Shown: piece by piece, positions 1,030 to 40,510 of the stretch
How positions within the stretch are numbered: position 1 is the first letter of the stretch
Layout of the letters: each line of letters begins with the position of its first letter
Source: a virus
Reading direction: 5' to 3' (one strand)
IMG/VR virus record: IMGVR_UViG_3300037587_000845
Span: 1 to 40,853 of that record
DNA length: 40,853 nt
Program-made: the position numbers and the translations under genes
Notes under the pieces: generated by a model
The model's database searches: none
What the model saw: only the letters and a program-made list of their open reading frames with translations
Told to the model about the DNA's origin: nothing

Positions 1030-1038
1030 AGGCCTATG
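1027..1038. repeat. 12-bp perfect palindrome linking two divergent start codons
   Basis: The bases CATAGGCCTATG are identical on both strands. The 3' ATG on the + strand is the start of the ERCC4 nuclease, and the 3' ATG on the - strand is the start of the small membrane protein. Only 6 bp separate the two coding regions, so any promoter for either gene must lie inside the other gene. Confidence 0.7.
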
Positions 1039-2721: not shown

Positions 2722-2982
2722 ATGACAGAACACAAAGGTAAGCTGACGCTCACTCCTTTAACAGAAATAGAGAAATTCCAGGAGCTCCTAAAAGAAACCA
2801 ACCACACACTGGCTGCCAGGCTCTGCCATATCGAGCTGTCACTTCTCCCCATGCTGAAGGAGCCTTTCCCTGACATCCCAGCAGATGCAAGTGCAACTGA
2901 CCTCCGCAACGCACTGGAGGCGTGCCTTGTGGATATAAAGACGAAGCGACTGATCCTTGAAGGTATGCTGGCCAAAAAATGA
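2722..2982 (+). CDS. Hypothetical helical protein (86 aa)
   Basis: No family recognised. The sequence predicts two or three amphipathic helices and no signal or membrane segment. The ribosome binding site AAGAGGA lies about 5 bases before ATG 2722, after a 37-base AT-richer spacer that contains a TATATA box but no convincing -35. The end overlaps the polymerase start by ATGA, so it may be translationally coupled to polymerase synthesis. Confidence 0.75.
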   Translation: MTEHKGKLTLTPLTEIEKFQELLKETNHTLAARLCHIELSLLPMLKEPFPDIPADASATDLRNALEACLVDIKTKRLILEGMLAKK

Positions 2983-7491: not shown

Positions 7492-8138
7492 AGCTGCTGA
7501 TACTGACTCCTCCAGGGATCCCGTCCCCTGAGTTCTCAGAGTGCCTCAAACTGCTGCGCCTGCAGTGGACCTCTGATGAGACCTCCCTCCTACAATTACG
7601 CTACGAGCTCGGGTTCACCCATGTCCTTTACACCTCCAGCGCCTACTCCTTTCTCACCTGGGACGAGAAGTCTATCCATGCCGCCTACTCTTTTGTGGGG
7701 AGCCCTCGCTGTCTGTTCAGCACCCACCGAGACCTTGAACCACCCAAGTATGAGCCCGTCCAGCACCGCACACACCGCCGCATCTATCGTGATATCTGCA
7801 CCAGCTCTTTCATGGGAGAGATCCTCTACCTCCACAAGAACCTGGACCGCTTCAGGCGGGGGGAGGTGACTCGCTTGGACTATAAGGGAGAGCATGGGGT
7901 GAAGCTGGACAAGGGTTGCGAGGTCTTTCAGAACATGGGAGCTGAGGGCCACAAGGATGTGTCCTGGGATACCGAGGAAGGGTTCTTCTACAACAACGCC
8001 ACCAAGTCTAACCCCTGCGTGATGAGCTTCACCGAGGGGAGACGCGGGATCCGCAGGATGTTCAAGCTGTGGGAGAAGGAGCGGCGAAAGCAGATGGTCA
8101 GGAAGGCTCGGGCCTTGGGACACGAGCTGTATGCCTAG
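7488..8138 (+). CDS. PLOD/procollagen-type glycosyltransferase relative, catalytic motifs degenerate
   Basis: The C-terminal half resembles the lysyl-hydroxylase-associated glycosyltransferase fold found in viruses and in PLOD/COLGALT proteins: VKLDKGCEVFQNM (138-150), then NNATKSNPCVMSFTEG (169-184), matching the usual 'LD..c.iFQn...N..T.t.P...H.NG'. An N-terminal Rossmann-like start (MKLLILTPPG) and VLYTSSAYSF (46-55) sit where the family has V-D-x-Y-D. The DxD metal site therefore reads SSAYSF, and the HxNG reads SFTEG. A substrate cannot be stated; the protein may be inactive or repurposed. It is the last gene of the + arm, and its TAG shares CTAG (8135-8138) with the convergent stop. Confidence 0.5.
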   Translation: MKLLILTPPGIPSPEFSECLKLLRLQWTSDETSLLQLRYELGFTHVLYTSSAYSFLTWDEKSIHAAYSFVGSPRCLFSTHRDLEPPKYEPVQHRTHRRIYRDICTSSFMGEILYLHKNLDRFRRGEVTRLDYKGEHGVKLDKGCEVFQNMGAEGHKDVSWDTEEGFFYNNATKSNPCVMSFTEGRRGIRRMFKLWEKERRKQMVRKARALGHELYA

Positions 8139-8509
8139 TGAATCAGGTCCACATAGAGGTTCGGACCCGTTGCCCACACGGGGTAGGAGCAGTGCTCCTT
8201 GAATGCCACCTCAAACTCCCTCAGGAAGTCCGTGATGTGGATCTTTGCCTTCTTGTTGAGCTTCATATAGGTGAGGCGCCGGTGTCCCTTCTCGGGATCT
8301 TCAAAGAGCTCCAGCATGATCCTCTCAGTGTCCAGGTCAGTGTCCCGGATGTGGTAGAGGTTGGCGCTACGAAACTCAGTGCCTACCCCAAAGCGCTCGA
8401 TAGTCTGACAGGTGAAGTACATGATCACATGGCTCTTGATCACGCTGAAGCGAGCCTGGGGGGGCAGGATACCCTGCAGAGGTTCGTACATGCGTACCGT
8501 CTCAGCCAC
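8135..8509 (-). CDS. Hypothetical protein, last gene of the late arm (124 aa)
   Basis: No family recognised. It is a soluble mixed alpha/beta protein with a Cys in a central hydrophobic strand (HVIMYFTCQTIERF). GTG 8509 is chosen because GAGGAGG lies about 6 bases upstream, and it overlaps the previous gene by 8 bases. It closes the late transcription unit, converging with the glycosyltransferase-like gene. Confidence 0.7.
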   Translation of the reverse strand: MAETVRMYEPLQGILPPQARFSVIKSHVIMYFTCQTIERFGVGTEFRSANLYHIRDTDLDTERIMLELFEDPEKGHRRLTYMKLNKKAKIHITDFLREFEVAFKEHCSYPVWATGPNLYVDLIH

Positions 8510-10148: not shown

Positions 10149-10319
10149 TCACTCTTCTTCTTCGGCTTCTTCCTCGTCCTCGTCGAGCTCGTCGTCCTCA
10201 GGGATGTCTCTAAGGACAAGGCCTTCATTTCCTCCGTCGTCGTACCACTCTTTGCCTGCGGGGCACGAGGCTTCAGGATCTGTCTGGACCTTTTTTGCCG
10301 TTTGTTTCTTTGTTGCCAT
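10149..10319 (-). CDS. Short acidic protein (56 aa), missed by a 60-codon cutoff
   Basis: The frame reads MATKKQTAKK, then a middle with one Cys (ASCPAGKEWYDDGG), then a strongly acidic end (EDDELDEDEEEAEEEE). The start ATG 10319 lies directly after the lysozyme TAA, and its strong AGGAGGA ribosome binding site is embedded in the codons for the lysozyme's own Glu-rich tail. Function unknown; the bipolar basic/acidic charge suggests a flexible protein-binding peptide. The other - strand frame across this stretch is a shadow. Confidence 0.75.
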   Translation of the reverse strand: MATKKQTAKKVQTDPEASCPAGKEWYDDGGNEGLVLRDIPEDDELDEDEEEAEEEE

Positions 10320-10751
10320 TTACTCTTCCTCCTCTTTTTCATTTCCAGTACGCATCTGAGTGGCCAGCTCCTCGGCTCGTGACTTCACCTGGGTGTGCCA
10401 TTTGGAGTCTAGCATCTCGGCTGCAGCCAGCTCGTAGTCCTCCTCCTCCAAGGCAGCAATCATATTCTTGAAGCCTTTCAGCCTGGGCCATCCCAAATTG
10501 AACATCATGTTGGTCAGGACCTCCTGACGAATATCATTAAGGTCAGAGAAGAAGGAGAAGCGCTTCTCGCACTCCGACTCGGCAGTTGAGATGTCGTTTG
10601 TGAGCATAAGGCTGCCCTCCTCCTTCGAGAGAGGGACAGCATCGAGGTTTCGCCCCCATCCGATGGTGAGGTAGCCCTCAGAGTCCTTATAGGGATCTTC
10701 ACGCCAGCCTTCATGGCGCTGGAGTTGCTTCCGCAGCCGTTCACTACTCAT
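10320..10751 (-). CDS. Endolysin, T4-type lysozyme (GH24 muramidase)
   Basis: The enzyme cleaves the N-acetylmuramic acid to N-acetylglucosamine bond of peptidoglycan. The catalytic triad spacing matches T4 lysozyme exactly: E14, D23 and T29 in the stretch HEGWREDPYKDSEGYLTIGWG. The C-terminal half has the usual helices, with FNLGWPRLKGFKNMIAAL and a final SRAEELATQMRTG. Length is 143 aa from ATG 10751, which overlaps the upstream gene by 8 bases. There is no signal peptide, so release depends on the holin. The tail NEKEEEE is unusually acidic and doubles as the next gene's ribosome binding site. Confidence 0.93.
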   Translation of the reverse strand: MSSERLRKQLQRHEGWREDPYKDSEGYLTIGWGRNLDAVPLSKEEGSLMLTNDISTAESECEKRFSFFSDLNDIRQEVLTNMMFNLGWPRLKGFKNMIAALEEEDYELAAAEMLDSKWHTQVKSRAEELATQMRTGNEKEEEE

Positions 10752-15360: not shown

Positions 15361-15643
15361 TCTTGCGCCCCTTCCGTTTCTTTTTACCCCTGAACTGGGA
15401 GAGCTGGGCCTTCTTCGGTTCCTCTGCCAGGCTGAAGTGCAGGCCTTTGACATCTCTGCCCTCGAAGCGGACATTCGATCCCTTCTTAATCCCCAGCTCC
15501 ATGGCAAAGCTCTCCAGCAACAGCCTGAGCTGCTCCTCCTGGTAAGCCCTCATGGGCCGGAGCTCCGCCTCGTGAGTCTGCACCGCAGCGATATAGAGCT
15601 TCTTCTGGGTGATGGTGAGAGGCCACTTCTTTTTGTTCATCAT
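15353..15643 (-). CDS. Hypothetical helical basic protein (96 aa)
   Basis: No family recognised. A long helical region (residues 12-50, KKLYIAAVQTHEAELRPM and EEQLRLLLESFAMELGI) is followed by a short strand-rich part (VRFEGRDVKGLHFS) and a very basic tail (KKKRKGRKSA). It overlaps the fibre gene upstream by 4 bases and the GNAT-like gene downstream by 8. It could be a fibre chaperone or a small virion protein; nothing decides. Confidence 0.68.
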   Translation of the reverse strand: MMNKKKWPLTITQKKLYIAAVQTHEAELRPMRAYQEEQLRLLLESFAMELGIKKGSNVRFEGRDVKGLHFSLAEEPKKAQLSQFRGKKKRKGRKSA

Positions 15644-17034
15644 TGCAGTAACCCGTAACTTTGCAGGTCCGCTATCAGTGTCCCGAGGACGTCAGCCAGC
15701 TCAGCCACCGAAGTGGCGTCGGCGTCGTAGGTCCTGTCCGCGACCACGTTGGTTATAGTATACGCTGCCGTCTGCACGACAGGAGCTGCGCCGTAGAACC
15801 CAAGCAGGGTGCCGGTATGCTCGAAGTCAATCACCGAAGTGAGACCAGCGTCGACCTTGATGGCATAGTTGGCGACTCCCTCAGTGGGGGCATTCACCAC
15901 ATGGAGGGTGGCAGCGATGGTGGCTGTGCTTCCGCCTACCAGGGTGATGTTGGGTTCCACCAGGCGCAGTTGACTGATGGCGGCAATGACCTCAGCCCCG
16001 CCCTGGGTGGAGATGCTGGCGTTCAGTCCCTGGCCGGTGAGGAAGGCTGTGTCTCCAGTAAAGCCTGTGAGGGTGGAGTCCAGGAACATATTGGCTGCAA
16101 AGTTGGAGGTCCCGTCAGAGACCAGAGAGCCCGTGAAGTTGTACTGGATGTGGCCCAGAGCAGAAGATCCTATGATATTGCCCAGGACTGCAAGATTGGC
16201 GTGGACGGTGGTTTGGCCTGTAGCTCCGCTGAAAGACATCACTGTGCCTGTTGGAGAACCGCCGATGATAGAAAGAAAGGAGTTGGCTTGGTTGTTCCCA
16301 TTGAGAGTAAAGCTCCAGTTCGCCCCTGCACCATTACTCACTTTGAAGCGGGCACCACTCCCGATCCCACCCGCAGCATTGAAACAACTAACCTCAGCGA
16401 TCCCTGGGTTGCCCACGGATTGGAAGAAGACAAAGCCGATGGAGTCAGTGCCGATATGGTCAGCATTCCAGAGAGTCATGTTCTTGGTCTGGACCGCAGG
16501 GGCTCCATTCCCTCCCGACGCTGCGGAGATATAGGCATTACGCCATTTGGTGTCAAACTGGGCACTGCCAGAGTTGCCGAGAAAGTTGGCCCCTGAGCCT
16601 AGGTTAAAAGCGGCCCCGTTGGAGCGAAAGATCCCCGTGTCACCAGCAGTGTAGTCGGCGCTTATAGACGCCCCTATACCTACTGGGATGTCGATGCCCA
16701 CGAGCACCCTGTTGGTTCCGCTGGCCTCGATGGGGGAGAGCCACTGGACGCCAGAGGACAGGTTCTCCTCCCAGAGAGGGATGGTGTGAGGGGTCTGCTC
16801 TCCCCCGTCGCCACCGATCAGGTTGATGATGTTGATGGGGTGGGAGCCGGTGGACTCCAACTGATCTCTGATGTCACCGATGGTCAGAGGCCCCTCGGCC
16901 ACCTTCTTGTCCATCTTGTTGAGCTCGGTCCTGAGCTGATAGACGTCATCAAAGAGACGGTAAATGGACTGCTCGGCATCGGCAGGGATGACGCCAGTGA
17001 GGTTGGGGTAGAAGCGCCCTGTTCTCTGGGGCAT
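15640..17034 (-). CDS. Virion tail fibre or spike (464 aa)
   Basis: The N-terminal 70 residues (QSIYRLFDDVYQLRTELNKMDKKV) form a helical virion-attachment module seen on many phage fibres. Residues 90-400 are beta-rich, Gly/Ser/Asn-rich fibre sequence (NLGSGANFLGNSGSAQF and similar). The last 85 residues, with an APTEGVANYAI block and a terminal AELADVLGTLIADLQSYGLLQ helix, are shared with the exported 906-residue protein at 28167-30887. The C-terminal helix probably trimerises. Role in host recognition is inferred from the fibre pattern. Confidence 0.75.
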   Translation of the reverse strand: MPQRTGRFYPNLTGVIPADAEQSIYRLFDDVYQLRTELNKMDKKVAEGPLTIGDIRDQLESTGSHPINIINLIGGDGGEQTPHTIPLWEENLSSGVQWLSPIEASGTNRVLVGIDIPVGIGASISADYTAGDTGIFRSNGAAFNLGSGANFLGNSGSAQFDTKWRNAYISAASGGNGAPAVQTKNMTLWNADHIGTDSIGFVFFQSVGNPGIAEVSCFNAAGGIGSGARFKVSNGAGANWSFTLNGNNQANSFLSIIGGSPTGTVMSFSGATGQTTVHANLAVLGNIIGSSALGHIQYNFTGSLVSDGTSNFAANMFLDSTLTGFTGDTAFLTGQGLNASISTQGGAEVIAAISQLRLVEPNITLVGGSTATIAATLHVVNAPTEGVANYAIKVDAGLTSVIDFEHTGTLLGFYGAAPVVQTAAYTITNVVADRTYDADATSVAELADVLGTLIADLQSYGLLQ

Positions 17035-25233: not shown

Positions 25234-26313
25234 CTAGCCGGTGATCCCGAAGAGTTGACGATGGTAACGAGGTCCAGGGACCGTAAAGGCGCATCCCGCA
25301 AGGACCTGACCGGCAACCTTGGTGTTGCCCTGAGCAGGCTTGAACCCGGTGAAACCGAATCCATACTCAGAATCGTTTGAAACGTAGAAGAAGATGAAGG
25401 GGGATCGGGCATTGATCCACCACAGAGTCTCAGCGGTGACTGTTGGATAAGCAGTGACGGCACCATTGCTCATCTCGGTGAGGTAGGTGACAGCGATGGG
25501 ATCGCTTGTGCCGGAGATCGCAGTCCCAGGAACATACCGACTCTTCATCAGGGTGGCGGCGTTGAACTCCATGCCGTTGAACCCGATCTTGGGATCCTGC
25601 GTGTTGATGAACCGCTGCTGTGTCTGGAATTTCTCCTTGATGAAGGAGTACCCGAGCACAGTGGTGATACCGATGTTGGGCTCGAACCGGCCGGACCCAA
25701 AACTGGCATCCCCGTAGGTCTCTTCAAGGGTGTTGTACTCAATGGTTCCCGCCACATCGGTGGGGGGTGAGTTCAACGTGGTGCCAACTGCTCCGCCTCG
25801 CGTGATCGTTCCATAGGTCGTGAACGTGGCTCCGTCCCACCCAGCGGTGACGCCATCATTCAGGGCCTCGGTCAGACCGTTGAAGTTGGGAGTGAAGTTA
25901 GCGGTTTGGCCTTCAAGGTACGACGCGATGGCAATGTGGGCCCCAATCGTCATGTACCCCGCCGTCATCCTGGTGTCGATCAAACGGTAGATCGCATTCT
26001 CACCCTTGTTCAGAACCTGGATGTCTTCCTTCGAGAGGGTTACGTTCACCTCGAAGAATTTCATCTCGAACTGGAGGTTCTGCTCAATCTGGCGCTCGGT
26101 GATGTCGAACTCCTTACCCTTCAGGTAGGAGCCACCGATCAGGCCATCATAGAGAAAGGGCTCGTCTATGCGGTTTCCACCCGTGTAATCTTCACGGACG
26201 TTCTGGCGGAGGTATGCGGTAAAGGGATCACTCTGGAAGACGTTGTCAACCAGTTCCACATTCTTGCGGACGTATCGCTTGGTAGAGGCATTTAACTGAT
26301 CTAGCTCTGCCAT
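25234..26313 (-). CDS. Major capsid protein (359 aa)
   Basis: The size, position right after the scaffold gene, and a strong start (GGAGGA 6 bases before ATG 26313) all fit the shell subunit. The sequence shows the expected order: a helical N-arm (NASTKRYVRKNVELVDNVF), a P-domain-like region with FDITERQIEQNLQFEMKFFEVNVTLSKED, a Gly/Thr-rich loop, and a C-terminal strand (VLAGCAFTVPGPRYHRQLFG). The fold is presumably HK97-like. I base the call mainly on context and pattern. Confidence 0.82.
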   Translation of the reverse strand: MAELDQLNASTKRYVRKNVELVDNVFQSDPFTAYLRQNVREDYTGGNRIDEPFLYDGLIGGSYLKGKEFDITERQIEQNLQFEMKFFEVNVTLSKEDIQVLNKGENAIYRLIDTRMTAGYMTIGAHIAIASYLEGQTANFTPNFNGLTEALNDGVTAGWDGATFTTYGTITRGGAVGTTLNSPPTDVAGTIEYNTLEETYGDASFGSGRFEPNIGITTVLGYSFIKEKFQTQQRFINTQDPKIGFNGMEFNAATLMKSRYVPGTAISGTSDPIAVTYLTEMSNGAVTAYPTVTAETLWWINARSPFIFFYVSNDSEYGFGFTGFKPAQGNTKVAGQVLAGCAFTVPGPRYHRQLFGITG

Positions 26314-27958: not shown

Positions 27959-28167
27959 GATTTCCTCCTTCGGCTTAATTGCCGACGTTGTTGTCCTCTA
28001 CGTTCTGCTTTCGATAGTAGCATGGCCACTCTCTGCTTCTCGGCCCGTTTGGGGCCGAATTTGCGGGCTGTGTGGGTCAAAATGCGGGGGCGATCATGCT
28101 TTATTTCATGCCCAGCGGCCTGGAGATCCTTGCGAGCTAGTCTGCTGGTGTTGATCAGTTTTGCCAT
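27955..28167 (-). CDS. Small basic protein (70 aa)
   Basis: The protein is strongly basic throughout (about 20 Arg/Lys), with HTARKFGPKRAEKQRVAMLLSKAER at its core. The core loosely resembles short DUF6496-like phage peptides with a 'K..QA.AIalS.A' helix. Ends in SRRRKS. Nucleic-acid binding is plausible from charge alone. Its start overlaps the exported fibre's stop. Confidence 0.62.
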   Translation of the reverse strand: MAKLINTSRLARKDLQAAGHEIKHDRPRILTHTARKFGPKRAEKQRVAMLLSKAERRGQQRRQLSRRRKS

Positions 28168-30887
28168 TACTGGATCAGCCCTAAGGATTGGAGATCTGCG
28201 ATCAGAGCAGCCAGCACATTGTTGTTGTTGAGGGCGGTGGCTGAGGCTGAGGCCAGGAGAGTGCGGGACTCTACGATAGTCGCGTTGCGGGTGTAGGCTG
28301 CAGGCTGGGTAGCCGGGGTGGTGCTGAAGAAGCCGAGGGTGGTGCCGGTGTGCTCCAAAGGCCCGCCCAGGAGAGTCGCTCCAGAATCAACCAGAATCGC
28401 AAAGTTACTGACTCCCTCTGTGGGAGCGCCAGTGATCAACAGGGTAGAGGCATTGGTGATGTCCCCTGTGAGGTTATCTGTGATGATCGGCTCGTCGAGT
28501 TTGAGTGTGGTGATGTCGTCGATAGTCTCAGTGGCCGTCTGAGTGACGATAGTGGTCATGTGGACAGAGATGGCTGCAAGGAAGTCCGTGTCGCCTGGGG
28601 CTCCAGTCATGACCCCTTCTACCCTGAATTTGGACGCTTCGTCGGTGAATCCCCCTGAGGTAAAAGTAGCCCCGGCAATCCTGACCTGGGTGTTGTTCAG
28701 CATCGAAGACACACCGAGTTGAAACTGCTGTCCTCGAATCAGCATCCCCCCTTCGCCAGTGGACCGTAGCGCAAGGTTGAGGTTGCCCTCTGTCGGAGTG
28801 CCGTTGATAAGCAAGGTCTGCGCGGTGAGGATGCTCCCCGTGAGATTGTCAGTGATGAAGGGCTCGTTAATCTGAAGTTGAGAAATAGTGGAGATGGATT
28901 CCGTTGCGGTCTGGGTGGTGATTCCAGCCGTGAGGGTGGTCCCTGTAAGCGAAGTCGTATCGCCAGGAGCCCCTACGATGGCTGGAGTATGAAATATGCC
29001 TGAAGCGATATCGCTGGACCCATCTGAGGTGAAGGTGGACCCGATGAGGAGCTGGATGGCCCCAGATGTAACTCCAGCAATCGAATGTGGCCCTGCACCT
29101 GAGACAGCTAGATTGCCCGTAATTACAACGCCAGCACTGTCGATGTTCACCGCTTCGACACTGCCCACGATAAGGGAAATCTCCCCACTAACCCCACCGA
29201 TACCTGTTGTGAAAGCGCCATTACTTGGAATGAGAGTCGGGTTGGTCGCGGATGCCGCTTCATTCAGTACCGCATAGGCAGAGGCAGCGGCACCTTGTAG
29301 GGGCAGAGTCGTTTCAATTCTAGTCTCGCTGAACTGCATTCGACTTACAGAGTTGGTGATAATATTGATTGTTTGCACACTGAGTGAACCGATACCGTTG
29401 TCCAGCTCGGAACGTCTGGGAAGCAAAGTGGGATTCGTTCCACTGGCAGTTTCGTTCAACAAGCCAAAGGCGGCGGAGTTTAGGGCCTGAATAGTTCCAC
29501 CGAATTGGGATAGGCCGCTCTCCACCAGGATCGCAAAGTTGGCCACGCCCTCCGTAGGAGCCCCGCCGATCCTCAATGTCGCCGCCTGGGTGATGAGCCC
29601 TCCGCCTGTAAGCAGATCGTTGATACCAGGCTCTTCGAGGTTAAGAGTGGCTATGTCTGCAATGCTCTCTGAAGCAGCCTGGGTGTTCACGCCGATATCC
29701 AGGTCCATCCCATAGAGCGAAGTCGTCATTCCTGCTGCACCGATGACATTGTTTTCAAGCCGGAACTTAACTCCTGTCAGGTCAGCTCCGAGCACTGGGA
29801 AATAGTCGTTGCCGAAGGTGAACTGGTGCTGGAAATCTATCGCTATCCCGAAGGAGTGTGGGCCCCGATGGGGGAGCGTAAACTGCCCAGGGTTGGAGGT
29901 GGTGTTGGTGACCTGCATCGCAGTAACGAAAGAAGGGCAACAGTTGACCCTTTCAGAGAGGACCCAGGACGAGTCCCCTGAGTCTGAGTCCATTACGACC
30001 TGCGTCTTCCACTGAGCCTCGAAGGGATTGCCGTCATCGGATCGCCCAGACATATTGAACGAATGAGAGTCCCGCTGGCCCGTACCCGGCTGGATAGAGG
30101 CGATTCTGAGGTCAATACCTATCTGGGTGGTGGTCTGGGCAAGCCCCAAATCCATGGTCCCGCCCCCACCGAAATTGTTCACATTGAGTACAGAGATGGT
30201 GTTAGCAGGGGAGAAATTGAAGGAGCCCAGGCCGAGCTGCACTGAAGCTGTGCCTGTCACGAGTCTGACCACACCACCACTGAGACCAGGCAGCGCTTCG
30301 AGACGCAGATCGATCCCTCCTGTCCCGGCATCAGTAGATTCAGCTTCAATAGCAAAAATCTTCACAGGGGGACCGCCGCCGACGTAGATGGACAGCCGAT
30401 CATAGGTCGAGAAGTCTGTGAAGGTGTCGTAGATATTCCACTGTTGGTTGTTGGTCCCGCGCCTCTGTTCGACGATGTCGGCAGCATTTCCTCGGTGGAT
30501 CTGGGCATCCGCTGAAGCCCCTAGCCTGATTGAGGCGGTATCGTTCACCAGCCCTAGAAGTCCAGTCGAGCTGTCGAAGGTGAAGGCAACGGTGCCCTCG
30601 ATCTCCGCAGGTCCAGTAAAGACAGCCACTTGGTTGTTAGCGCCAGCGCCTGACATGCTCCCCACCATGGGACTCCAGGTGTCCGTAGCAAGACACTGCT
30701 GCATCCCTAAGGGAGTGCCTGGATCGATGATGAAGAAGACCTGGCCGATGCCGGGGTTACAGGTGGCGGGGACTGTAGGGCCGAAACGGATACGAGAAGC
30801 AGAGTCCCTCCTGACCTGGCCATGAGCCAGAGAGGTCACAAGGAAAAGAAACAGCAGAAACCAGTAGACTCGTAATACTTCCTTCAT
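28167..30887 (-). CDS. Exported fibre-like protein with Sec signal peptide (906 aa)
   Basis: The N-terminus is a classic signal peptide: positive start (MKEVLR), hydrophobic core (VYWFLLFLFLVTSLA), then A-H-G/Q as a cleavage site. Two cysteines at about 43 and 65 (CNPG and QQC) lie in the first mature domain and could form a disulfide after export. The rest is beta-rich, with at least three copies of a block APTEGVxNFAI. The last 55 residues match the end of the virion fibre at 15640-17034 (same LGF-x-x-TxP...ALIADLQSLGLIQ). A phage fibre with an export signal is unusual. It follows a second signal-bearing gene and is translationally coupled to it (ATGA). Confidence 0.72.
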   Translation of the reverse strand: MKEVLRVYWFLLFLFLVTSLAHGQVRRDSASRIRFGPTVPATCNPGIGQVFFIIDPGTPLGMQQCLATDTWSPMVGSMSGAGANNQVAVFTGPAEIEGTVAFTFDSSTGLLGLVNDTASIRLGASADAQIHRGNAADIVEQRRGTNNQQWNIYDTFTDFSTYDRLSIYVGGGPPVKIFAIEAESTDAGTGGIDLRLEALPGLSGGVVRLVTGTASVQLGLGSFNFSPANTISVLNVNNFGGGGTMDLGLAQTTTQIGIDLRIASIQPGTGQRDSHSFNMSGRSDDGNPFEAQWKTQVVMDSDSGDSSWVLSERVNCCPSFVTAMQVTNTTSNPGQFTLPHRGPHSFGIAIDFQHQFTFGNDYFPVLGADLTGVKFRLENNVIGAAGMTTSLYGMDLDIGVNTQAASESIADIATLNLEEPGINDLLTGGGLITQAATLRIGGAPTEGVANFAILVESGLSQFGGTIQALNSAAFGLLNETASGTNPTLLPRRSELDNGIGSLSVQTINIITNSVSRMQFSETRIETTLPLQGAAASAYAVLNEAASATNPTLIPSNGAFTTGIGGVSGEISLIVGSVEAVNIDSAGVVITGNLAVSGAGPHSIAGVTSGAIQLLIGSTFTSDGSSDIASGIFHTPAIVGAPGDTTSLTGTTLTAGITTQTATESISTISQLQINEPFITDNLTGSILTAQTLLINGTPTEGNLNLALRSTGEGGMLIRGQQFQLGVSSMLNNTQVRIAGATFTSGGFTDEASKFRVEGVMTGAPGDTDFLAAISVHMTTIVTQTATETIDDITTLKLDEPIITDNLTGDITNASTLLITGAPTEGVSNFAILVDSGATLLGGPLEHTGTTLGFFSTTPATQPAAYTRNATIVESRTLLASASATALNNNNVLAALIADLQSLGLIQ
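28380..29580 (-). repeat. Three copies of the APTEG block in the exported fibre gene
   Basis: Copies at about 28383-28446, 28759-28815 and 29521-29580 each encode T-L-x-I-x-G-[AT]-P-T-E-G-x-x-N-x-A-[IL]. A fourth copy is in the virion fibre at about 15850-15908. Each precedes a beta strand and follows a TD-x-LTG or similar segment, so the block marks a repeated fibre module rather than a DNA-level tandem repeat. Confidence 0.7.
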
Positions 30888-31553: not shown

Positions 31554-33476
31554 CTAGCTCTCCTTCATAGTCATGCGAGGCATGGTCTGGCCTGAGGCCT
31601 TACGGCCGGTTGGTGAGATGTTCATGCCCAGCCCCATCTCAGCTTCAGCCATTAGCCTTTCAGTGATTGTTTTAGCCCCAGTGGGGGCCTCTCCGACGTT
31701 GTCTATACCCATGACTTCAAGCAGCGTCCAGTGGTCGACAAGACCGGCTCGGGAGAGGGAGAGATAGAGGAGCTTGCGCTCGATCTCACTGGAGGCCAGC
31801 AGAGACGCGGGGGCGATGTGGAAGGTGAAATAGCGTAGGAAGTGTGTGGCTCGATCCACTCGGGGCGTGGGGCCTCGTTTGAGGGCCTCCATGGTGATGT
31901 TCCCGGCAGCTCCGAAGTCCTCATCAGCCACATAGTCGGGGACCAGGGTGCCTGGATCGAAGTCGAAGTCCTCAGAGACAATGGCCTGGGGGCCCAGGAT
32001 GGCCAGCCTCATGGGCATGGTGTAGAACTGGAAGAAGTTGGAGGCTGTCATCATGGCGAATTCGCGAATAAAGGCCTCCATGTAGCGAGAGCGGAGCCGG
32101 TTGGCCGGGGTCATACTCTCGGTGATCTTTTCGATGGTGTCCGCAGCCGGGAGCTGGTTCAGCTTCATCAGATTGGAGAGGTCCCTGACGCCAGAGATGT
32201 CATCCATCTGCTCGATGAGGAAAGCGACGTGATTCTGGATGGAAGGGTCCAAGGGCGGCTCATAGAGCACCTGGGCGGGCTTGCCGGAGATGGGGTTGTA
32301 GGAGAACTTCAGCCCAGGACGCCGGGTGTTGATCTTCCTCATCCCTCGGCGGGAAAGAGCGTTCTTGTCACCCATGATCCCAGGCTCGGCCACGCGCTGG
32401 TTGTGATCGTCGATGATGCGGATAGTCGAGTTGAGAGACTTTTGGAGCGGGAGGATGTCCCACAGGGGGGCCTTGCCCAGCCAGGTCCACGGCCAGGGGT
32501 CCAGAGTGAGCTTGTTCAACGGGAAGAGGCCGTGCCAGAAGGGGTTGGGCCCGTCGTACATGATGGCCGTGCGGGTGAAGACCACCATACGGCGTCTGGG
32601 GTAGAGAGGCTTACCAGGATCCACAACATAGGCCCAGTTCTTATCTGCCTCACCCATCAGCAAGGGGACTTTCGACTCATTGATGGCCGGATCCTTGACG
32701 TAGAGGGTGAACATATCGACTGTGGGGATCCTGGCGATGCGTTGGGCAGCTCGCTCGGCCAGGAGATTGGCATGGAAGGGGGAGAGCTGAGCGTTGAGCG
32801 ATGAGAGCAGACGGTTGGCTCGGGAGGCACCAGCTGAAGCCTGGAAAGATCCGTCCCGATCTGCCTTGATCAGATGGGCGCACTCGGGGTATTTGGCGCG
32901 GACATAGCCGACTGTCCTCTCGCGCCGGACAATGACCCCCATCGCATCCTGGATAGAATAATATGATGCTGGTCTAATGGGTAGTACATCGCGTGGATCC
33001 TCGGCTAGTATATCGAGGTCTTCTGTCTCAGTATTCCAACCCGTGTGATGACACCATCCGGTGCCAGCAGCGCAGGCATATTTGATAGCGTCAGCGAATC
33101 GGAGGTCGATCATCCTCCCCTGCCACCAATGTTGGGAGAGCTTGCCCAAGATGTCAGCTGTCTCCCTAAATCGGGGATTGAAGGTTTTGTAATCCCAGAA
33201 GGGTTTAGTGTCTGTTAGCCCGGCGACTAAGTTTAGTGCGATCTTGCCAAAGCGGTTCAGATTGGTCGAGGAGAGCACCCGGCCGAAGGGCTGATCAAAG
33301 TCCCCATTGATGGCCATGATGGTGGGAGCGATGCGGTCATACTGGGGTTGAGCCTTCAGGAAGGCAGTACCCTCAGTGATGGCGTCAGTGGCCCAGCCGA
33401 TGACACGGTGCTGGTAGTCGGCAGCGGGGACCGAGCTCATCTTGTCTCTGTCCAGTCTGGGGATTATCGAAGCCAT
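31554..33476 (-). CDS. Portal protein (640 aa)
   Basis: It lies after the terminase genes and before the scaffold and capsid, the standard portal place. The sequence has the mixed helix-strand pattern of tailed-phage portals: N-terminal helices (YQHRVIGWATDAITEGTAFL), a wing or clip region with RPASYYSIQDAMGVIVRRERT, then KLTLDPWPWTWLGKAPLWDILPLQKSLNSTIRIIDDHNQRVAEPGIMGDKNA (the stem region) and a helical crown. It forms the dodecameric ring through which DNA enters and leaves. AGGAGG lies 5 bases before ATG 33476. Confidence 0.82.
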   Translation of the reverse strand: MASIIPRLDRDKMSSVPAADYQHRVIGWATDAITEGTAFLKAQPQYDRIAPTIMAINGDFDQPFGRVLSSTNLNRFGKIALNLVAGLTDTKPFWDYKTFNPRFRETADILGKLSQHWWQGRMIDLRFADAIKYACAAGTGWCHHTGWNTETEDLDILAEDPRDVLPIRPASYYSIQDAMGVIVRRERTVGYVRAKYPECAHLIKADRDGSFQASAGASRANRLLSSLNAQLSPFHANLLAERAAQRIARIPTVDMFTLYVKDPAINESKVPLLMGEADKNWAYVVDPGKPLYPRRRMVVFTRTAIMYDGPNPFWHGLFPLNKLTLDPWPWTWLGKAPLWDILPLQKSLNSTIRIIDDHNQRVAEPGIMGDKNALSRRGMRKINTRRPGLKFSYNPISGKPAQVLYEPPLDPSIQNHVAFLIEQMDDISGVRDLSNLMKLNQLPAADTIEKITESMTPANRLRSRYMEAFIREFAMMTASNFFQFYTMPMRLAILGPQAIVSEDFDFDPGTLVPDYVADEDFGAAGNITMEALKRGPTPRVDRATHFLRYFTFHIAPASLLASSEIERKLLYLSLSRAGLVDHWTLLEVMGIDNVGEAPTGAKTITERLMAEAEMGLGMNISPTGRKASGQTMPRMTMKES

Positions 33477-33908
33477 CTAGCCTCCTGCTTCCTGCTTGGT
33501 TTCTGCCACGCTGTCCTTCCACATCTGCAGCTTCGCTCGTTCTGAGAGGCGCTTGGGCGGAGTGGGCTTTTCCTGGTCAGCGGAGTTTCCTGCGTTGTAG
33601 TGCATCAGGTCGTTGCGGACCCCGTGCTCCCTCTCGAACTTCTCTACGGCGCGCAGGGTGGGGAGCTCCTTGCGGACGAACCCTTGCTTGGCATAGCGCT
33701 CGGGGACAGGGACGTCATTTCTGCCTGGGTAGCGGATCTCGCCGGTGGCGGGGTTCTCAAAAACCACAACCCGATCTTTGGCGTGGACCTGGTAAGGAGT
33801 TTTGAGGGTGGACCCGTGAGGACACCAGGGCCAGTCACCGACCTCCAGGTAGAGACCGCAGTCGGGGCAGGGAGTGTGTCCCTCATAAGTAGGCTCCGTG
33901 CCGCTCAT
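33477..33908 (-). CDS. Zinc-finger phage protein between terminase and portal (143 aa)
   Basis: The N-terminus holds CPDC (14-17) and a CPHG (29-32), a FmdB-like zinc ribbon. Then comes a conserved module GEIRYPGRNDVPVPERYAKQGF and ELPTLRAVEKFEREHGV, common in phage small proteins near portal genes. The C-terminus is a basic helix (ERAKLQMWKDSVAETK). The role is unknown; the ATG overlaps the preceding stop as ATGA. Confidence 0.75.
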   Translation of the reverse strand: MSGTEPTYEGHTPCPDCGLYLEVGDWPWCPHGSTLKTPYQVHAKDRVVVFENPATGEIRYPGRNDVPVPERYAKQGFVRKELPTLRAVEKFEREHGVRNDLMHYNAGNSADQEKPTPPKRLSERAKLQMWKDSVAETKQEAGG

Positions 33909-34425: not shown

Positions 34426-34821
34426 TCACCTCATATTGGCTGTACGTTCCAGGCCCTCGATGGCCTGTTTACGCAGGTACGTCTTGAAGTCCATGGCCCT
34501 GGAGCACCGGCTCTTCAATCGAGTGAGGAGGGTGGGGGCCAAAGTGACCTGGGTGTTCCCCAGGCGGATGGACTGCTGGTTGCGGATTCGTTTGAGGGCG
34601 TCTGAAGCTTCATAGACGATACGCCCACCGGTCAGCTTCTCCAGCTCAGAGCGATCAGCGTCATTGAAGTAGACGCCCCTATTAGCATTATGCTGGCGAC
34701 ACAAGAAAAGGCGCTTGGTGATGACCTCATCCAGGGTTTTGCCCTCCTCCTTGGCCTGCGCCTCGTATAATTCAATGACATCGACTGGGAGGGTGAGAGA
34801 CAGGATCTGAGTGTTTTGCAT
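34426..34821 (-). CDS. Double ribbon-helix-helix-like DNA-binding protein (131 aa)
   Basis: Two RHH-like units are seen: residues 4-36 (ILSLTLPVDVIELYEAQAKEEGKTLDEVITKRL) and about 84-125 (strand NTQVTLAPTLLTRLKSR with a following helix TYLRKQAIEGLE). Each has a short strand followed by two helices, as in Arc/MetJ-type repressors. AAAGGAG precedes ATG 34821. It may regulate late genes or act as a small-terminase-like DNA binder; the position next to the terminase nuclease gene fits either. Confidence 0.6.
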   Translation of the reverse strand: MQNTQILSLTLPVDVIELYEAQAKEEGKTLDEVITKRLFLCRQHNANRGVYFNDADRSELEKLTGGRIVYEASDALKRIRNQQSIRLGNTQVTLAPTLLTRLKSRCSRAMDFKTYLRKQAIEGLERTANMR

Positions 34822-34931
34822 AGAACTGCTCCTTTCAGATCCAGTATAAACGGAACCCACCGTGATCTTGGATGTCCTGTCCCAAGGGGCATCTTAGAAA
34901 GGGCAGAGGTGGGCTCCAAAGACAGGATAAC

Positions 34932-35765
34932 TTAGTCTTCGATCATCGAGGCGAAACGGTCTTCCCAGCGCTCGGCCATCTGTTCCACGGAACAGTCGCT
35001 GGCTTGCCAGTTGGGGGAGTTGTCCGGCTCGGTATCCATAGTGGTGATGGTCTCCACGTCCAGGGACCAGTCGTGGGCAGCCCAAATGGCCATGAGGAGG
35101 GCTCTGACGCGATCATCGTGCTTCCCGTAGATGGCCTTTCCCATCATTTTGATGGGATCCTCCTCGCAATCGGTCATTTCCTCGACGAGGGGTTCGCTGT
35201 AGAGCTCGATACGCTCGTGGATGATGTGACGGGTGCCCCGGATCCACAGGTCGCGGACGGTCTTCTCGTTGGAATACCAGCCCAGAGAGGTGGTGAGCTT
35301 GGGGGTGAGCTTGTCCACATAGCGCCAGATGTAGATGTTGGTGTACCCGAAGCGGTTGATGAGCTCGCGCAAGAGAGGGAGACCTGGGCCTGGCCACACC
35401 TCGGGGATGCACAGGCACTGGCCGTCCTCGTTGTCGCCGCAGAACAGGCGCCCTAAGGCATTGGCCAGGACAGCCAGGTCATAAGGATCCAGGGGACCGG
35501 CGTACTCACAGACCTGCTTGTCCTTCTTGCCGTTACGCCCTTTCTTGATGATCTCGATGGCGCCGTTGTCGGTTCGCAGGTCGTCACGGGTACGGAGCTC
35601 TCGGGACCAGGCGGTGATTCCCTTGGTGGGATCGATCCCCATGAAGTAGGTGGCGCGAGGATCAGGGGGCTCGTAGATCCAGATCACACCACGGGGATCT
35701 CGATCCGCGATGTGAGCGTGCATGAGATGGCCGAAATTCCCGATAGGGAGGGTATCTGGAGCCAT
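34932..35765 (-). CDS. Terminase large subunit, separate nuclease domain (277 aa)
   Basis: This is the RNase H-fold nuclease half of a large terminase, encoded on its own. The three acidic sites are in order: D45 in YFMGIDPTKG, E122 in CIPEVWPGPG, and D217/D218 in GKHDDRVRALLMAIW. Between them GYTNIYIWRYVDKLTPKLT and LGWYSNEKTVRDLW match TerL nucleases of related phages. It cuts concatemeric DNA during packaging. It lacks any Walker motif; the ATPase is 3.1 kb upstream at 38867-40093. AAGGAAGG precedes ATG 35765, and the start joins the 981-residue gene as TAATG. Confidence 0.85.
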   Translation of the reverse strand: MAPDTLPIGNFGHLMHAHIADRDPRGVIWIYEPPDPRATYFMGIDPTKGITAWSRELRTRDDLRTDNGAIEIIKKGRNGKKDKQVCEYAGPLDPYDLAVLANALGRLFCGDNEDGQCLCIPEVWPGPGLPLLRELINRFGYTNIYIWRYVDKLTPKLTTSLGWYSNEKTVRDLWIRGTRHIIHERIELYSEPLVEEMTDCEEDPIKMMGKAIYGKHDDRVRALLMAIWAAHDWSLDVETITTMDTEPDNSPNWQASDCSVEQMAERWEDRFASMIED

Positions 35766-38710
35766 TACTGGCCTTCCTTGTGGGCAGACATAGCCTCGGC
35801 AGTAGCTGCAGTGCCAGCAGCAGCAGCGCCGGTGGTTCCCATAAGGATCTGGTAGAGAGGAAAACCGCGCTCTACAATGGCCTCACGCATCTTGGGGGTG
35901 ATACGGATAGTGTTGACCGTAGGGGCTGATGCTTCCTGGGCCTCCTCCAGAGTGTCAAACACCATTTTCCCTGTCCTTGTCCTGTTGGAGGGATCCGTTA
36001 TCCCGTACTTCATCTCCAGGTTGGGGTTCGCCTTCTTGAATGCTTCGATGATAGTCGGATCTATCTTGTCGAGCCCTGTTCCCGCGTTGACCCTAGCCTG
36101 CCCTGCTATCAGCATGGACCTCCTGTTCGACAATTCAGCTCCCTTCCTCTGCAGCACCGTCACTTGATGGTGCATCTTCGGCCTGTAACTGGATGGTGGG
36201 GACAGGGCAGTTAATTTTTTTTCCTGAGCTAGAAGCGCGTTTCGCTGCAACCTGAGGCGCGGGATTTCCTTATCGGCCCAGGAGACAAAGGTGCCAGGGT
36301 CTGCAGGGATCTCCACGATCTGGAAAGTGGGGCCCATGGACTCCTTGGTCACCTTGCCCCCGAATCTCTTAACCAGCTTGTTGGCAACATTTCTCAGTTC
36401 GCCATCGTAGAAGAATCTGAGCTTTTCTCCGCCCAGCCATAGCTCTTCATTTTCTAGCAGCCCCTCCTTTTCCCCAGCTCGCATCTTGTCCCCTATTTTC
36501 CTCCCCACCCAATCATCGAGGGTGTCTGCTGGGGCCGTCGCTTGCCTCCAGTTGGTGGTGATGTTCGCCTCCATATCCGCTTTGGTTCGGAATTCGAGGA
36601 AGTACTGTTCTTCCTGCACGCCCTTCTTGCTGGCACCGGTGCCCTTGGTCCATTTGATATCCTCGATGTGCATGGCAGCGTTGTAGCGATCCGCCTGAAC
36701 CTGGCCCCTGGACCAAGCGATGGTGTCGTAGCCGTCATCGACAGCCTTCTGAAGTATTCGCTTAAAAGCCAGCTCAGGCCAGGTTTTGCCGAAGGGGGCT
36801 GGCGGGGGTTTACCTCCTTCTTCTGGAGTTTCATCCGCCCCTTCAAAGTCATTACGGGCATCGGTCAACTGCTCGTCGGCCTCTTGGAGGGTGTCGTGTG
36901 CGCTTTCTGCATCGCTCAGCTCGTCTTCCGCCCCTCGGAGATCACCTTCCAGGTCGTCGATCTTCATCTGCAGATCGTCGAGCCGTTCCTGCATCTCTTC
37001 GGGTATTTCGACGTCTGGAGGAGGTTCGCGTTTAGGAGTTCCGGGTAGCTCCATCTGCCTCTCGGACTCAGCCAGGATGGCATCCGCTTCCTCTTGCAGC
37101 TCGTTTACTATGTCGTCTGCCTCCATATCCAGATCGTTCCAATCTGTCTGAGTTGTTTCGAGGTCGTACTCGATGTCTGCGTGCCGCGTTTTCGCCTCTT
37201 CGAGCTGGTAATAGGCATCGTCAACCGACATCCCGTAATCATCTTGCAGGACCTCGTAGTTCCCCTCCGCCTCCTCGAAAAGCTCCCTAAATTCCTCATA
37301 TTCATCGCTCCGCGCTAACACATCGCCCTCTTCGGCGTACCCCAGCTGGCGTCCCTTCTGGTGCCAGTCGCTCTGGATCTCTTCGATGAAAAGGAGGCGC
37401 CTTTCTTCTCCAGTGACAGGATCTTTGAATTTGCGCTCAACGGTGCGGAAATGGGCTAAGGTATCGTCTGAGAAGTGCTGCGAGTAGCGGGCTTCTCGTC
37501 CAGGGAGCGTTATGAGGACCTCCTGGTAATCTGACCAGTTGGCGGGATCTCCTTCAACGTAGGAGCTGTATTGCCCAGAAGCCTCGGTCCCCTGCCTGGT
37601 TACTATCTTGACCTCCAGCTCGTTGCCCCTGACGTAGTTAAGGACGTCCTCCTTGGTGAGCTTTGTGTTGGGGTAAGTGTTGTGTTTGGCCGTGAGCCAT
37701 TGATCCAACCCGTTCCACTCCAGCTCAGCCTTCTTATAGTCCCCCTTCTGCCAGAACTTGTTGACTAGCTCCCTCATCTCCTTTGGGCTGGCTCTCCCAG
37801 GGAGCTTCTGCTCTAAGGCACGTCCCATCTGGCTGTACATGCCCGACTGGCTCTTTATGAACAGGCCCTCATAGGCAGGGTGGAGGGCACCTCTCTGGTC
37901 AGCTATTGCGCCACCTGGAGCTAAGGAGCGGGTTAAGGCGCGCTGGAAATTGGGTGGGAGCCTTTTGATTCCGGCATCAAGGAGACCCTGTTGGAGCTCG
38001 ACGGCGAGCTCGTCAAGCTGCTCGGGGCGGACCCGGCTGAACATCTGAGCGACACCTGGGTCCTGCCCGGCCAGTCCAGCACTGACTACGTCGTCCAGGA
38101 GGCTACGAATCCCTCTTATCCCCGCAGCTCCGGCTTTGGCAAAACCCACCACCAGGAGGGGATCAGTGAGCATGTCGGTGACGATGTTCCCGATGAGGCG
38201 GCTCTCTTCGCCTGGGGCAGCGAGCTGGGTTTCAGGGAGGCCGGTGACGAGTTTACGAATTCCACGGCCCACCACATCGAAGATCTTCAGGGGTTCCAGC
38301 GTCTCTGCAAAGGTGGGCCCTTCTCCTCTCCTGGCGGGAGTTGTGACCCCACCGTAGTAGCCCCACAGTGACCCTTTCTTTTCTGGATCGGGGAGGATGG
38401 GATCCAGTACGCTCTCGAAGAAGCCCTTCTGGCGCTCAGCCTCTATATCCTGGGACTCTTTGACGATGCGGTCATGCTCAGCTCGCTGTTCGAGGGTCAT
38501 ATGAGCAGGAGCAGTTTGGAGCGGGGGAGGTGCGACTGGTTCCGGGGGAGGAGGTGCAGGGGGTGGCCAGGCGGAAGGAGCACGAGAGCTCAGCAGACTC
38601 CCTCTCTCTTGCCGTGCTGAAGGCTCAAAGGCTACACTTTTCCGGGGTGGTCGAGCGGAAGGGAGCGGAGGCGTTGTAGTTTTCTTCTTTTTCTTAGCCT
38701 TCTCGGCCAT
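35765..38710 (-). CDS. Large polyvalent-type phage protein with coiled-coil insertion (981 aa)
   Basis: The N-terminus is basic, then Pro-rich (residues 1-65). The middle has a Gly-Ala helix part (MLTDPLLVVGFAKAGAAGI). The core is a domain common in large multidomain phage proteins: LLFIEEIQSDWHQKGRQLGY (439-458) and, after 170 residues, TWPELAFKRILQKAVDDGYD-TIAWSRGQVQADRYN (644-676), then RFFYDGELRNVANKLVKRFGGKV. The 465-630 stretch between them is an acidic coiled coil (QEEADAILAESERQ; DDLQMKIDDLEGDLRGAEDEL) that looks like an insertion in the domain. It sits between the two halves of the terminase. Enzyme activity is unknown. Confidence 0.7.
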   Translation of the reverse strand: MAEKAKKKKKTTTPPLPSARPPRKSVAFEPSARQERGSLLSSRAPSAWPPPAPPPPEPVAPPPLQTAPAHMTLEQRAEHDRIVKESQDIEAERQKGFFESVLDPILPDPEKKGSLWGYYGGVTTPARRGEGPTFAETLEPLKIFDVVGRGIRKLVTGLPETQLAAPGEESRLIGNIVTDMLTDPLLVVGFAKAGAAGIRGIRSLLDDVVSAGLAGQDPGVAQMFSRVRPEQLDELAVELQQGLLDAGIKRLPPNFQRALTRSLAPGGAIADQRGALHPAYEGLFIKSQSGMYSQMGRALEQKLPGRASPKEMRELVNKFWQKGDYKKAELEWNGLDQWLTAKHNTYPNTKLTKEDVLNYVRGNELEVKIVTRQGTEASGQYSSYVEGDPANWSDYQEVLITLPGREARYSQHFSDDTLAHFRTVERKFKDPVTGEERRLLFIEEIQSDWHQKGRQLGYAEEGDVLARSDEYEEFRELFEEAEGNYEVLQDDYGMSVDDAYYQLEEAKTRHADIEYDLETTQTDWNDLDMEADDIVNELQEEADAILAESERQMELPGTPKREPPPDVEIPEEMQERLDDLQMKIDDLEGDLRGAEDELSDAESAHDTLQEADEQLTDARNDFEGADETPEEGGKPPPAPFGKTWPELAFKRILQKAVDDGYDTIAWSRGQVQADRYNAAMHIEDIKWTKGTGASKKGVQEEQYFLEFRTKADMEANITTNWRQATAPADTLDDWVGRKIGDKMRAGEKEGLLENEELWLGGEKLRFFYDGELRNVANKLVKRFGGKVTKESMGPTFQIVEIPADPGTFVSWADKEIPRLRLQRNALLAQEKKLTALSPPSSYRPKMHHQVTVLQRKGAELSNRRSMLIAGQARVNAGTGLDKIDPTIIEAFKKANPNLEMKYGITDPSNRTRTGKMVFDTLEEAQEASAPTVNTIRITPKMREAIVERGFPLYQILMGTTGAAAAGTAATAEAMSAHKEGQ

Positions 38711-38717
38711 GGACCCA

Positions 38718-38870
38718 TCATACCTTTAACTTAGCCGCAGTGTGAGGCATCCAGGGATCCTTCCAGTTCCTCAACCAGCACTTGACGCAGACTTTGCGGA
38801 TGGTACCGTCCACGAGCTCGATCACGGGGATCCCCTTGTTCTTGCGCTTGCCGCAGTCGAAGCAGGTCAC
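38718..38870 (-). CDS. 50-residue zinc ribbon between terminase ATPase and polyvalent protein
   Basis: The frame reads MTCFDCGKRKNK (GTG start), then PVIELVDGTIRKVCVKCWLRNW. Two CxxC pairs (3-6 and 28-31) form a treble-clef or zinc ribbon. GTG 38870 overlaps the terminase ATPase stop as GTGA, and the stop lies 7 bases before the next ATG, so it fills the gap exactly. Too short for a 60-codon search. It could be a DNA- or protein-binding partner of the split terminase; the function is inference. Confidence 0.78.
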   Translation of the reverse strand: MTCFDCGKRKNKGIPVIELVDGTIRKVCVKCWLRNWKDPWMPHTAAKLKV

Positions 38871-40093
38871 TGAATAGAGCCCACGGCGGTGGGGACGAAA
38901 TCGAAGGGTTTGCCGACAGAGGTATCCAGGCGGAGTTTTTCGAGGACCTCAGGGGGGAAGGCGGACTGGTTGGTGTGCTGGAAGGATTCCTCGGGGGTGG
39001 CGCAGTAGTTGGTCAGGAAGATGTTCAGGACGCCGGATTTGACGGCCGAGTCGCGCTCCATCTCCCACCAGTAGAGATGCTCGTCTGGAGGGGTGTAAAT
39101 CTTGCCCAGCCACTCCTCAGAGGTCTCGATGATCTTGTGGGCGTACTTGTTGGTCATCGCGGCCGGGTGCCAGCCTTCAGGGACACGGGCACGGTACTTC
39201 TTCTGCTCAGCGTAGACAGGGACGAAGATGTAGTGCCAGCCTCGCTGGTGGCCACTTCTAACGCCTTCAGTGAACTCATGCCACCAGTTGCCCCGGCCCT
39301 GGGCTGTGGATTCCAGGATGCACATGGTGTAGATGGATTGGGGCAGGGTGGGGAAGAAATCCAGCTCGATCATGCGGGGATAGGGCCAGGAGGCGCACTC
39401 GGTGAGGTGGCCGAAGTCGAACTGACGACCTTGGCCCAGGCCGGACTGCATCCGGGAGTGCTGGTAGAGGACGGCGGAGTTGAGGGCCTCGAAGGAGAGG
39501 TGCTCTGCCTTTACGTCGTAGCCCGTTTTGGGCCGCATCCACCAGGGCAGGTTGTCCCAGATCAGCTTGTCTCGGTTGTAGAGTTCGAGGATCTTGTCTT
39601 CATCGACGGACGCTCCCATTGCTCGTATATCACGGTAAAGTGTGAGCCGGTGCATTCCACAAGCGCGTGCGAACATCGTCCCTCCGAGTTGACGCGCTTT
39701 GTGATCCACCACACGGATGCCATCGACGGGGTAGCCCTGGTCTTTCGCGTCATAGTTCTCCTCCTCGATTCGGGCGAAGTGGGTGAGAATGATCTCCTGG
39801 GCCTCCCAGAAGTTGAACAGACCTACCCCCCCGCCCTCTACGCCGTCGTAAGCGATGGTGCAGTAGCGATTGGACCAATATCGGAAGTCGAGCCGGGAGA
39901 GAGCAACCTCGTTGTGAATAATCTGCTTCTCTTCGGAGTTGAGAGTGCGCTGGAGCTCACCCTCGTCATTGCGGAGTTTGTTCAGGTGCTCCACCCACTC
40001 CTTGGAAGCTTCCACGGTCATGGGCCTCAGGGTGATCTTGTGCTTGGCCATGTAGGCCTCGATGTTGCGGTCTACGATCTTCGGGGAGTACAT
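38867..40093 (-). CDS. Terminase large subunit, separate ATPase domain (408 aa)
   Basis: This is the motor half of the DNA-packaging terminase. A TerL-type Walker A (KARQLGGT, 132-139) follows the strand GIRVVD. A Walker B-like HLTECASW (229-236), with E232 as the catalytic acid, and the coupling motif ESTAQG (261-266) follow in order. Late features include EHLYWWEMERD and ATPEESFQH, after which fused terminases continue into the nuclease. Here the frame stops at residue 408 (GSIQ), and the nuclease is a separate gene at 34932-35765. The start abuts the previous stop (TAG-ATG). Confidence 0.88.
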   Translation of the reverse strand: MYSPKIVDRNIEAYMAKHKITLRPMTVEASKEWVEHLNKLRNDEGELQRTLNSEEKQIIHNEVALSRLDFRYWSNRYCTIAYDGVEGGGVGLFNFWEAQEIILTHFARIEEENYDAKDQGYPVDGIRVVDHKARQLGGTMFARACGMHRLTLYRDIRAMGASVDEDKILELYNRDKLIWDNLPWWMRPKTGYDVKAEHLSFEALNSAVLYQHSRMQSGLGQGRQFDFGHLTECASWPYPRMIELDFFPTLPQSIYTMCILESTAQGRGNWWHEFTEGVRSGHQRGWHYIFVPVYAEQKKYRARVPEGWHPAAMTNKYAHKIIETSEEWLGKIYTPPDEHLYWWEMERDSAVKSGVLNIFLTNYCATPEESFQHTNQSAFPPEVLEKLRLDTSVGKPFDFVPTAVGSIQ

Positions 40094-40510
40094 CTATCTC
40101 TTCACCGTCTCATCGATCAGCCGAAACATCCGTCTGAGACCCTTTCTGCGCTCTCTTTCCTTGACATGCTCGGTAGTCCTCCTCTCGATCATCTTCTGAC
40201 CTTCGTAGCAGGTGATGTCGAAGGTCCCTCCAGCTCTGTATGACTCCGCAGCCCCAGGCACGGAGACGTACAGGAGAGGCCTGACGTCATTGAGCTGTTC
40301 GAGGGCCATATAGTGGCCGGTGGCATCCAGAGGAGCTGCCAGCCACTGTCCAACGTAGACTGAGTTGCCCTGGGCCGGTTTCCAGCCCGTCCACTCCCAG
40401 ATCCGATAGCCCTTGTAGACGGGGCCTTCATTCTTGGCATAGTTGGCATCCATGGCCTTCCCGGTCACCACAGCTGTGGGGATGAGCCCCAGAAACATTC
40501 TTCTATCCAT
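40094..40510 (-). CDS. Hypothetical protein with Tat-like N-terminal signal (138 aa)
   Basis: The N-terminus MDRRMFLGLIPTAVVTGKAMD carries the twin-arginine pattern RRxFLG followed by a moderate hydrophobic stretch, like a bacterial Tat signal. The rest is a single small domain with Trp-rich YKGYRIWEWTGWKPAQGNSVYVGQW and a basic C-terminal helix (EHVKERERRKGLRRMFRLID). No family recognised. It starts by a 1-base overlap with the upstream gene. Real export through Tat is inference; a chance RR pair is possible. Confidence 0.68.
   Translation of the reverse strand: MDRRMFLGLIPTAVVTGKAMDANYAKNEGPVYKGYRIWEWTGWKPAQGNSVYVGQWLAAPLDATGHYMALEQLNDVRPLLYVSVPGAAESYRAGGTFDITCYEGQKMIERRTTEHVKERERRKGLRRMFRLIDETVKR

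Follow-up and report, generated by a model that had tools for sequence, protein, structure and literature searches.

A large terminase encoded as separate ATPase and nuclease genes in a clade of uncultivated tailed phages

The large terminase subunit (TerL) of tailed phages normally carries its ATPase and its nuclease on one protein and is regarded as a single-chain hallmark of these phages, used to find and classify them. In the stretch of DNA analysed here, a 40,853-base IMG/VR fragment of an incomplete genome (IMGVR_UViG_3300037587_000845, positions 1-40,853; hereafter the window), the two halves are encoded by different genes that lie 3,101 nt apart. This locus raises the questions of whether such a two-gene TerL is genuine, how it arose, and what the genes between its halves have to do with DNA packaging.

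The terminase genes of the window

The ATPase half is a 408-aa protein (38867-40093, minus strand) whose fold was assigned by homology to the model of a relative, L009. Against annotated TerLs, tblastn matched it to Tunturi_1 (E 4e-25), and its profile matched T4 gp17 in the PDB (E 0.001) over a region spanning Walker A to the coupling motif. The original prediction had credited this half with Walker A, Walker B and coupling motifs. The coupling motif ILESTA (39302-39319, minus) and the catalytic glutamate motif GHLTEC (39395-39412, minus) are in place, but neither Walker motif is standard: Walker A reads KARQLGGT (39677-39700, minus), with its lysine at the front and lacking a GK[ST]; in Walker B, T/S takes the place of the aspartate ahead of the catalytic glutamate.

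The nuclease half, an RNase H-type protein of 277 aa (34932-35765, minus), starts at its own ATG with AAGGAAGG upstream. The predicted acidic triad of D45 (35631-35633), E122 (35400-35402) and D218 (35112-35114), all on the minus strand, is present and is near-invariant in split members of the family. A sequence-based family search of this half returned no match; its structural model, of modest confidence (pLDDT 65), resembles the nuclease domain of RB49 gp17 (3c6a; E 1.6e-6, TMt 0.73) and, more weakly, that of herpes pUL15. Neither terminase half was matched in a Pfam search, and PHROGs gave only E 0.1, the family being too divergent for the Pfam terminase models. Of the features that define a TerL, the window encodes a P-loop ATPase with Walker A (in its deviant form), catalytic glutamate and coupling motif, as well as an RNase H-like nuclease with an acidic triad. 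Their union on one polypeptide is seen in the fused L009 and L039, whereas the window, like most of its relatives, has two genes.

Two genes on the same strand fill the interval, a 50-aa zinc-ribbon ORF with a CxxC...CxxC pattern (38718-38870, minus) and a 981-aa ORF (35765-38710, minus). An ORF check returned all four genes with exactly the coordinates and sizes first proposed, and the sequence of the junctions bears out the tight joins: the zinc-ribbon start overlaps the ATPase stop in GTGA, 7 nt separate the zinc ribbon from the 981-aa gene, and the stop of the latter and the nuclease start form TAATG. Misassembly, which would have undone the prediction, is unlikely because a second IMG/VR contig, L006, repeats the layout throughout and is 99.9% identical in nucleotide sequence across 10.9 kb. 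A sister locus, L007, has the same layout except that another large gene fills the interval. A frameshift or simple sequencing error was ruled out, as the layout recurs in other contigs and the halves are 3.1 kb apart.

Beyond the nuclease, a 144-aa protein (34426-34860, minus) that weakly matches ribbon-helix-helix proteins is conserved beside the nuclease in 49 loci and is a candidate packaging accessory or small terminase. A 143-aa protein (33477-33908, minus) keeps its place directly ahead of the portal in 44 loci. The portal protein itself (640 aa, 31554-33476, minus; phrog_156, E 1.8e-14), with homologues in 77 loci, and the major head protein (25234-26313, minus; phrog_9953, E 1.6e-16) are encoded further along on the same strand as the terminase halves. 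Synteny of the portal with these halves is conserved, and a role for them in packaging with the portal is predicted.

Elsewhere in the window, 2979-5561 (plus) encodes a DNA polymerase A that contains a 3'-5' exonuclease domain and has a uracil-DNA glycosylase domain fused to its N-terminus (UDG 2.5e-20, DNA_pol_A 3.9e-89), and 787-1758 (plus) an ERCC4-type nuclease with helix-hairpin-helix motifs. Within the window, the 906-aa protein at 28167-30887 (minus) is partly paralogous to a 464-aa protein at 15640-17034 (minus; E 9e-24).

Split and fused terminases among relatives

Relatives were gathered by scanning IMG/VR with the window ATPase and with ATPase profiles, which yielded well over a hundred, most of them metagenomic fragments, and a locus was called split or fused according to whether the ATPase and nuclease profiles matched the same ORF. 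Among 164 IMG/VR and phage loci, a set that includes redundant contigs and a small number of annotated isolates, 108 were split and 56 fused. The split phages thus counted form a large group that is uncultivated and mostly unstudied. All isolates examined among the matches have a single-gene TerL as annotated, and none is split. A search for close relatives in genome contigs returned one contig only, the split L094, in an Acidobacteria gp7 MAG; this single contig, together with the Tunturi phages as best isolate matches, provides the lead on a host.

In a first tree 61 of 68 rows are split, including 33 of the 35 rows in the window's clade. The two exceptions, L009 and L039 (54% and 42% identity to the window ATPase, respectively), are nested among the split rows of that clade. 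This tree requires three changes between split and fused and rejects a grouping of all fused rows (AU p 7e-5), while separate trees of the ATPase and the nuclease require four and three changes. A wider tree of 80 rows adds a 13-row fused clade and requires at least five changes; here, rejection of a grouping of that clade with the fused outgroups is borderline (AU p 0.054). All of these trees come from quick searches and contain some long branches.

An ancestral split followed by two re-fusions is well supported by these trees for the window clade, and the fused genes of L009 and L039 would most simply be read as re-fusions. For the superclade as a whole, a reading of one split and exactly two re-fusions was softened after the 13-row fused clade appeared. 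More than one split may possibly have occurred across it, since the test does not firmly exclude a common grouping of that clade and the fused outgroups. Conservation of the split in relatives, to which the original prediction had looked for support, holds in the window clade, and split loci are the majority among the 164. Judged by this distribution, the split appears to be old and general in the window clade, which goes beyond the earlier reading. An uninterrupted TerL homologue is present in L009, L039, the outgroups and Tunturi_1.

The break and its cargo

In split members the break always falls in the inter-domain linker, past the ATPase tail and ahead of the nuclease core, which in the window clade are marked by GKPYDV and DPRG...EPP. 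Gap sizes range from -71 to 3,739 nt. Of 61 split rows, 24 have genes that adjoin directly or overlap (-71 to 0 nt); L025, L028, L035, L037 and many others have halves that overlap by 1-4 nt, and the halves of L011 are parted by one in-frame TAA and the GTG that follows it. At least 15 changes between the abutting and separated states are required on the tree.

Gap content is unrelated between lineages, which argues that it is cargo outside the motor. Among the loci compared, the 981-aa ORF has a homologue in L006 only; in L007 its place is taken by a 703-aa gene that is mostly unrelated to it, with a weak 60-aa match. L008, the next-nearest lineage to the window, carries an HNH_3 endonuclease and a 117-aa ORF where the window has the zinc ribbon and the 981-aa gene. 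HNH_3 is also found in the gap of L048 and, antisense, in that of L071. The gap of L014 holds a Methyltransf_24-containing gene whose N-terminal half is glycosyltransferase-like by eye; in L015 such a gene is joined by a LAGLIDADG-like ORF. Further cargo includes an S8 subtilase in L078 (4671-5894; Peptidase_S8, 3.9e-34), with a similar protein in L082 (1884-3152), and a radical-SAM-like ORF in L018. The LAGLIDADG-like motifs of L015 and L017 were seen by eye and have no Pfam match. Most gaps contain no recognised endonuclease. The statement that no homing endonuclease is present, made at the outset, is correct for the window gap but does not extend to relatives, where HNH or LAGLIDADG-like ORFs occupy the same gap, L008 included.

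One small gene family is found on either side of the ATPase gene. Its window member (40094-40510, minus) lies upstream of the ATPase, its homologue in L010 (2335-2841) lies inside the ATPase-nuclease gap, and L027 has the family in both places (10206-10613 and 7737-8174). This pattern suggests a mobile cargo gene.

The zinc ribbon had been put forward as a candidate adaptor for docking the nuclease, a proposal that its distribution does not support. Among the loci compared it is confined to the window, the near-identical L006 and the 86%-identical sister L007, against which it shows purifying selection (dN 0.026, dS 0.372); other relatives lack it, many having nothing at all between the halves. 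Being restricted to the window lineage, it cannot be a general adaptor. Small CxxC..CxxC ORFs are weakly enriched in gaps (4/25 versus 19/419, Fisher p 0.033), but two of the four come from sisters, and the enrichment was set aside as evidence. By these comparisons, the 3.1 kb distance is a lineage-specific state, and the genes that fill it are later cargo with no part in the motor.

A probable packaging enzyme in two chains

We consider it probable that the large terminase of the window clade is a genes-in-pieces enzyme, produced by an old fission in the linker, acting as a two-chain motor and encoded around a junction that gains cargo. Sequence and distribution show that fission between ATPase and nuclease left two genes, each with its own start; in the ancestral state these probably abutted. 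The two polypeptides would most likely re-associate after separate translation, the ATPase forming a portal-docked ring to which the nuclease may be added, as its own subunit, for the cuts that initiate and terminate packaging. Comparison of the gaps indicates that the junction of the two cistrons has come to behave as an ordinary gene boundary, with repeated gain and loss of cargo, homing-type endonucleases among it; in the window lineage this cargo is the zinc ribbon and the 981-aa gene. The tree further suggests that the two genes became one again in a few relatives. The nuclease half would need to work as a subunit of its own. A more far-reaching proposal, to which we give an even chance, is that of an ancient and stable two-subunit tailed-phage motor across the clade, in which a separate nuclease docks on, or is exchanged from, the ATPase ring and from which TerL has been re-fused more than once.

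Several observations point to two working halves of one enzyme. The fused L009 folds as one TerL (pLDDT 89, pTM 0.82) that matches T4 gp17 (E 7e-22), and the halves are therefore equivalent to the ATPase and nuclease domains of a conventional TerL. Among split members, the catalytic E232 of the ATPase is kept in 61 of 61 and K132/R134/Q135 in 58 of 58 with data, while in the nuclease D45 is kept in 55 of 55 with data, E122 in 60 of 61 and D218 in 61 of 61. Compared with L007, both halves are under purifying selection, with dN/dS of about 0.17 and 0.15.

The main rival keeps both proteins active but places the nuclease outside the translocating motor, so that an ATPase ring packages alone and a recruited nuclease cuts at initiation and termination only. 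Phage phi29 offers a precedent, as the TerL homologue with which it packages has only a vestigial, inactive nuclease domain (PMC9410871), and separate cistrons would permit unequal amounts of the two proteins. However, the apparent re-fusion of the genes in two window-clade lineages and the position of the break in the linker suggest that the halves continue to function next to each other, and we regard this alternative as unlikely.

Rejoining of the halves by RNA splicing, with the interval as a gene-bearing large intron that yields a normal single TerL, is very improbable. TerL genes are frequent targets of introns and inteins, as in ICP1, the Jug phages and UL15, and relatives of the window carry inteins in the ATPase. 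Each half nevertheless begins and ends at codons of its own, the joins overlapping; a search of the window and eight relatives against Rfam returned no intron; and many relatives are gap-free (-4, -1 or 0 nt), leaving nothing there to splice. An intron across the split, already discounted in the original prediction, is rejected on these grounds. An intein is rejected as well, none being seen at the break. The inteins observed lie solely inside the ATPase: L038 (1496-3490) and L040 (1455-3428) have one of about 250 aa right past Walker A that ends ...SHN|T, as judged by eye, and L041 (5289-7577) has a LAGLIDADG intein at the conserved NYC motif (Pfam Intein_splicing, 1.1e-14).

That both ORFs are remnants or a decoy, with an undetected third terminase doing the packaging, is the least credible reading: it could appeal to the incompleteness of the window and the divergence of the family, but it is opposed by active-site residues kept in essentially all split members at low dN/dS, by conserved synteny with the portal and neighbouring genes, and by the presence of just one homologue of either half in each near-complete relative. 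The second full-length TerL that would have overturned the original prediction was not detected in the window, nor in the near-complete relatives of 58-68 kb, which have one ATPase, one nuclease and no further TerL by Terminase_6N or phrog_2; phrog_2 matches nothing in them but the ATPase half, and Terminase_6N has no match. Taken together, the evidence supports a genuine two-gene TerL in the window that is not the product of a frameshift, intron or intein.

A two-gene TerL is a natural separation of motor from nuclease. It makes domain communication, the number of nuclease copies per ring and the need for the nuclease in translocation accessible to experiment, and the relatives provide a natural series of one essential enzyme in fused, abutting, separated and apparently re-fused form. 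The clade that carries it is poorly seen by standard profiles.

Comparison with known systems

Some actinobacteriophage annotations label a TerL "ATPase domain" and "nuclease domain" separately. No published description of a two-gene TerL was found in the open-access literature, and a comparative study described the two-domain TerL as universal in jumbo phages (PMC7824862). The window enzyme shares with T4 gp17-type TerLs an ATPase core and an RNase H nuclease, as seen in the match of its ATPase profile to gp17 and of its nuclease model and L009 to the RB49 and T4 gp17 structures; it differs in its two genes, deviant Walker A and missing Walker B aspartate. The best isolate matches, Tunturi_1/2 of Tunturiibacter (PMC11924767), align to 96% of the ATPase at 26% identity and have a similar genome size (63 kb), but their TerL is a single 723-aa gene.

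Interrupted terminase coding regions are known from ICP1, whose terL is spliced (PMC10448857), from Jug phages, where group I introns interrupt terL (PMC12363816), and from herpesvirus UL15, where a 3.5 kb intron holds two other genes (PMC3079670); the terL of Mic1 carries an intein (PMC7156551). The intron-split genes are rejoined by RNA splicing, whereas the window clade has separate starts and stops, no detected intron and gap-free relatives.

The closest concept is that of enzymes with genes in pieces, namely NrdA of phage Aeh1 (mobE), whose pieces are fully functional, the T4 topoisomerase gene 60 (mobA) and the split gp43 of phage 25 (PMC2988022). In these, too, an essential enzyme is made as two polypeptides, and the genes lying between its parts are in some cases homing endonucleases. 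In the window clade, by contrast, the break lies between domains and not in a functionally critical region, most gaps have no recognised endonuclease, the break is conserved over a large clade, and the protein is a packaging motor.
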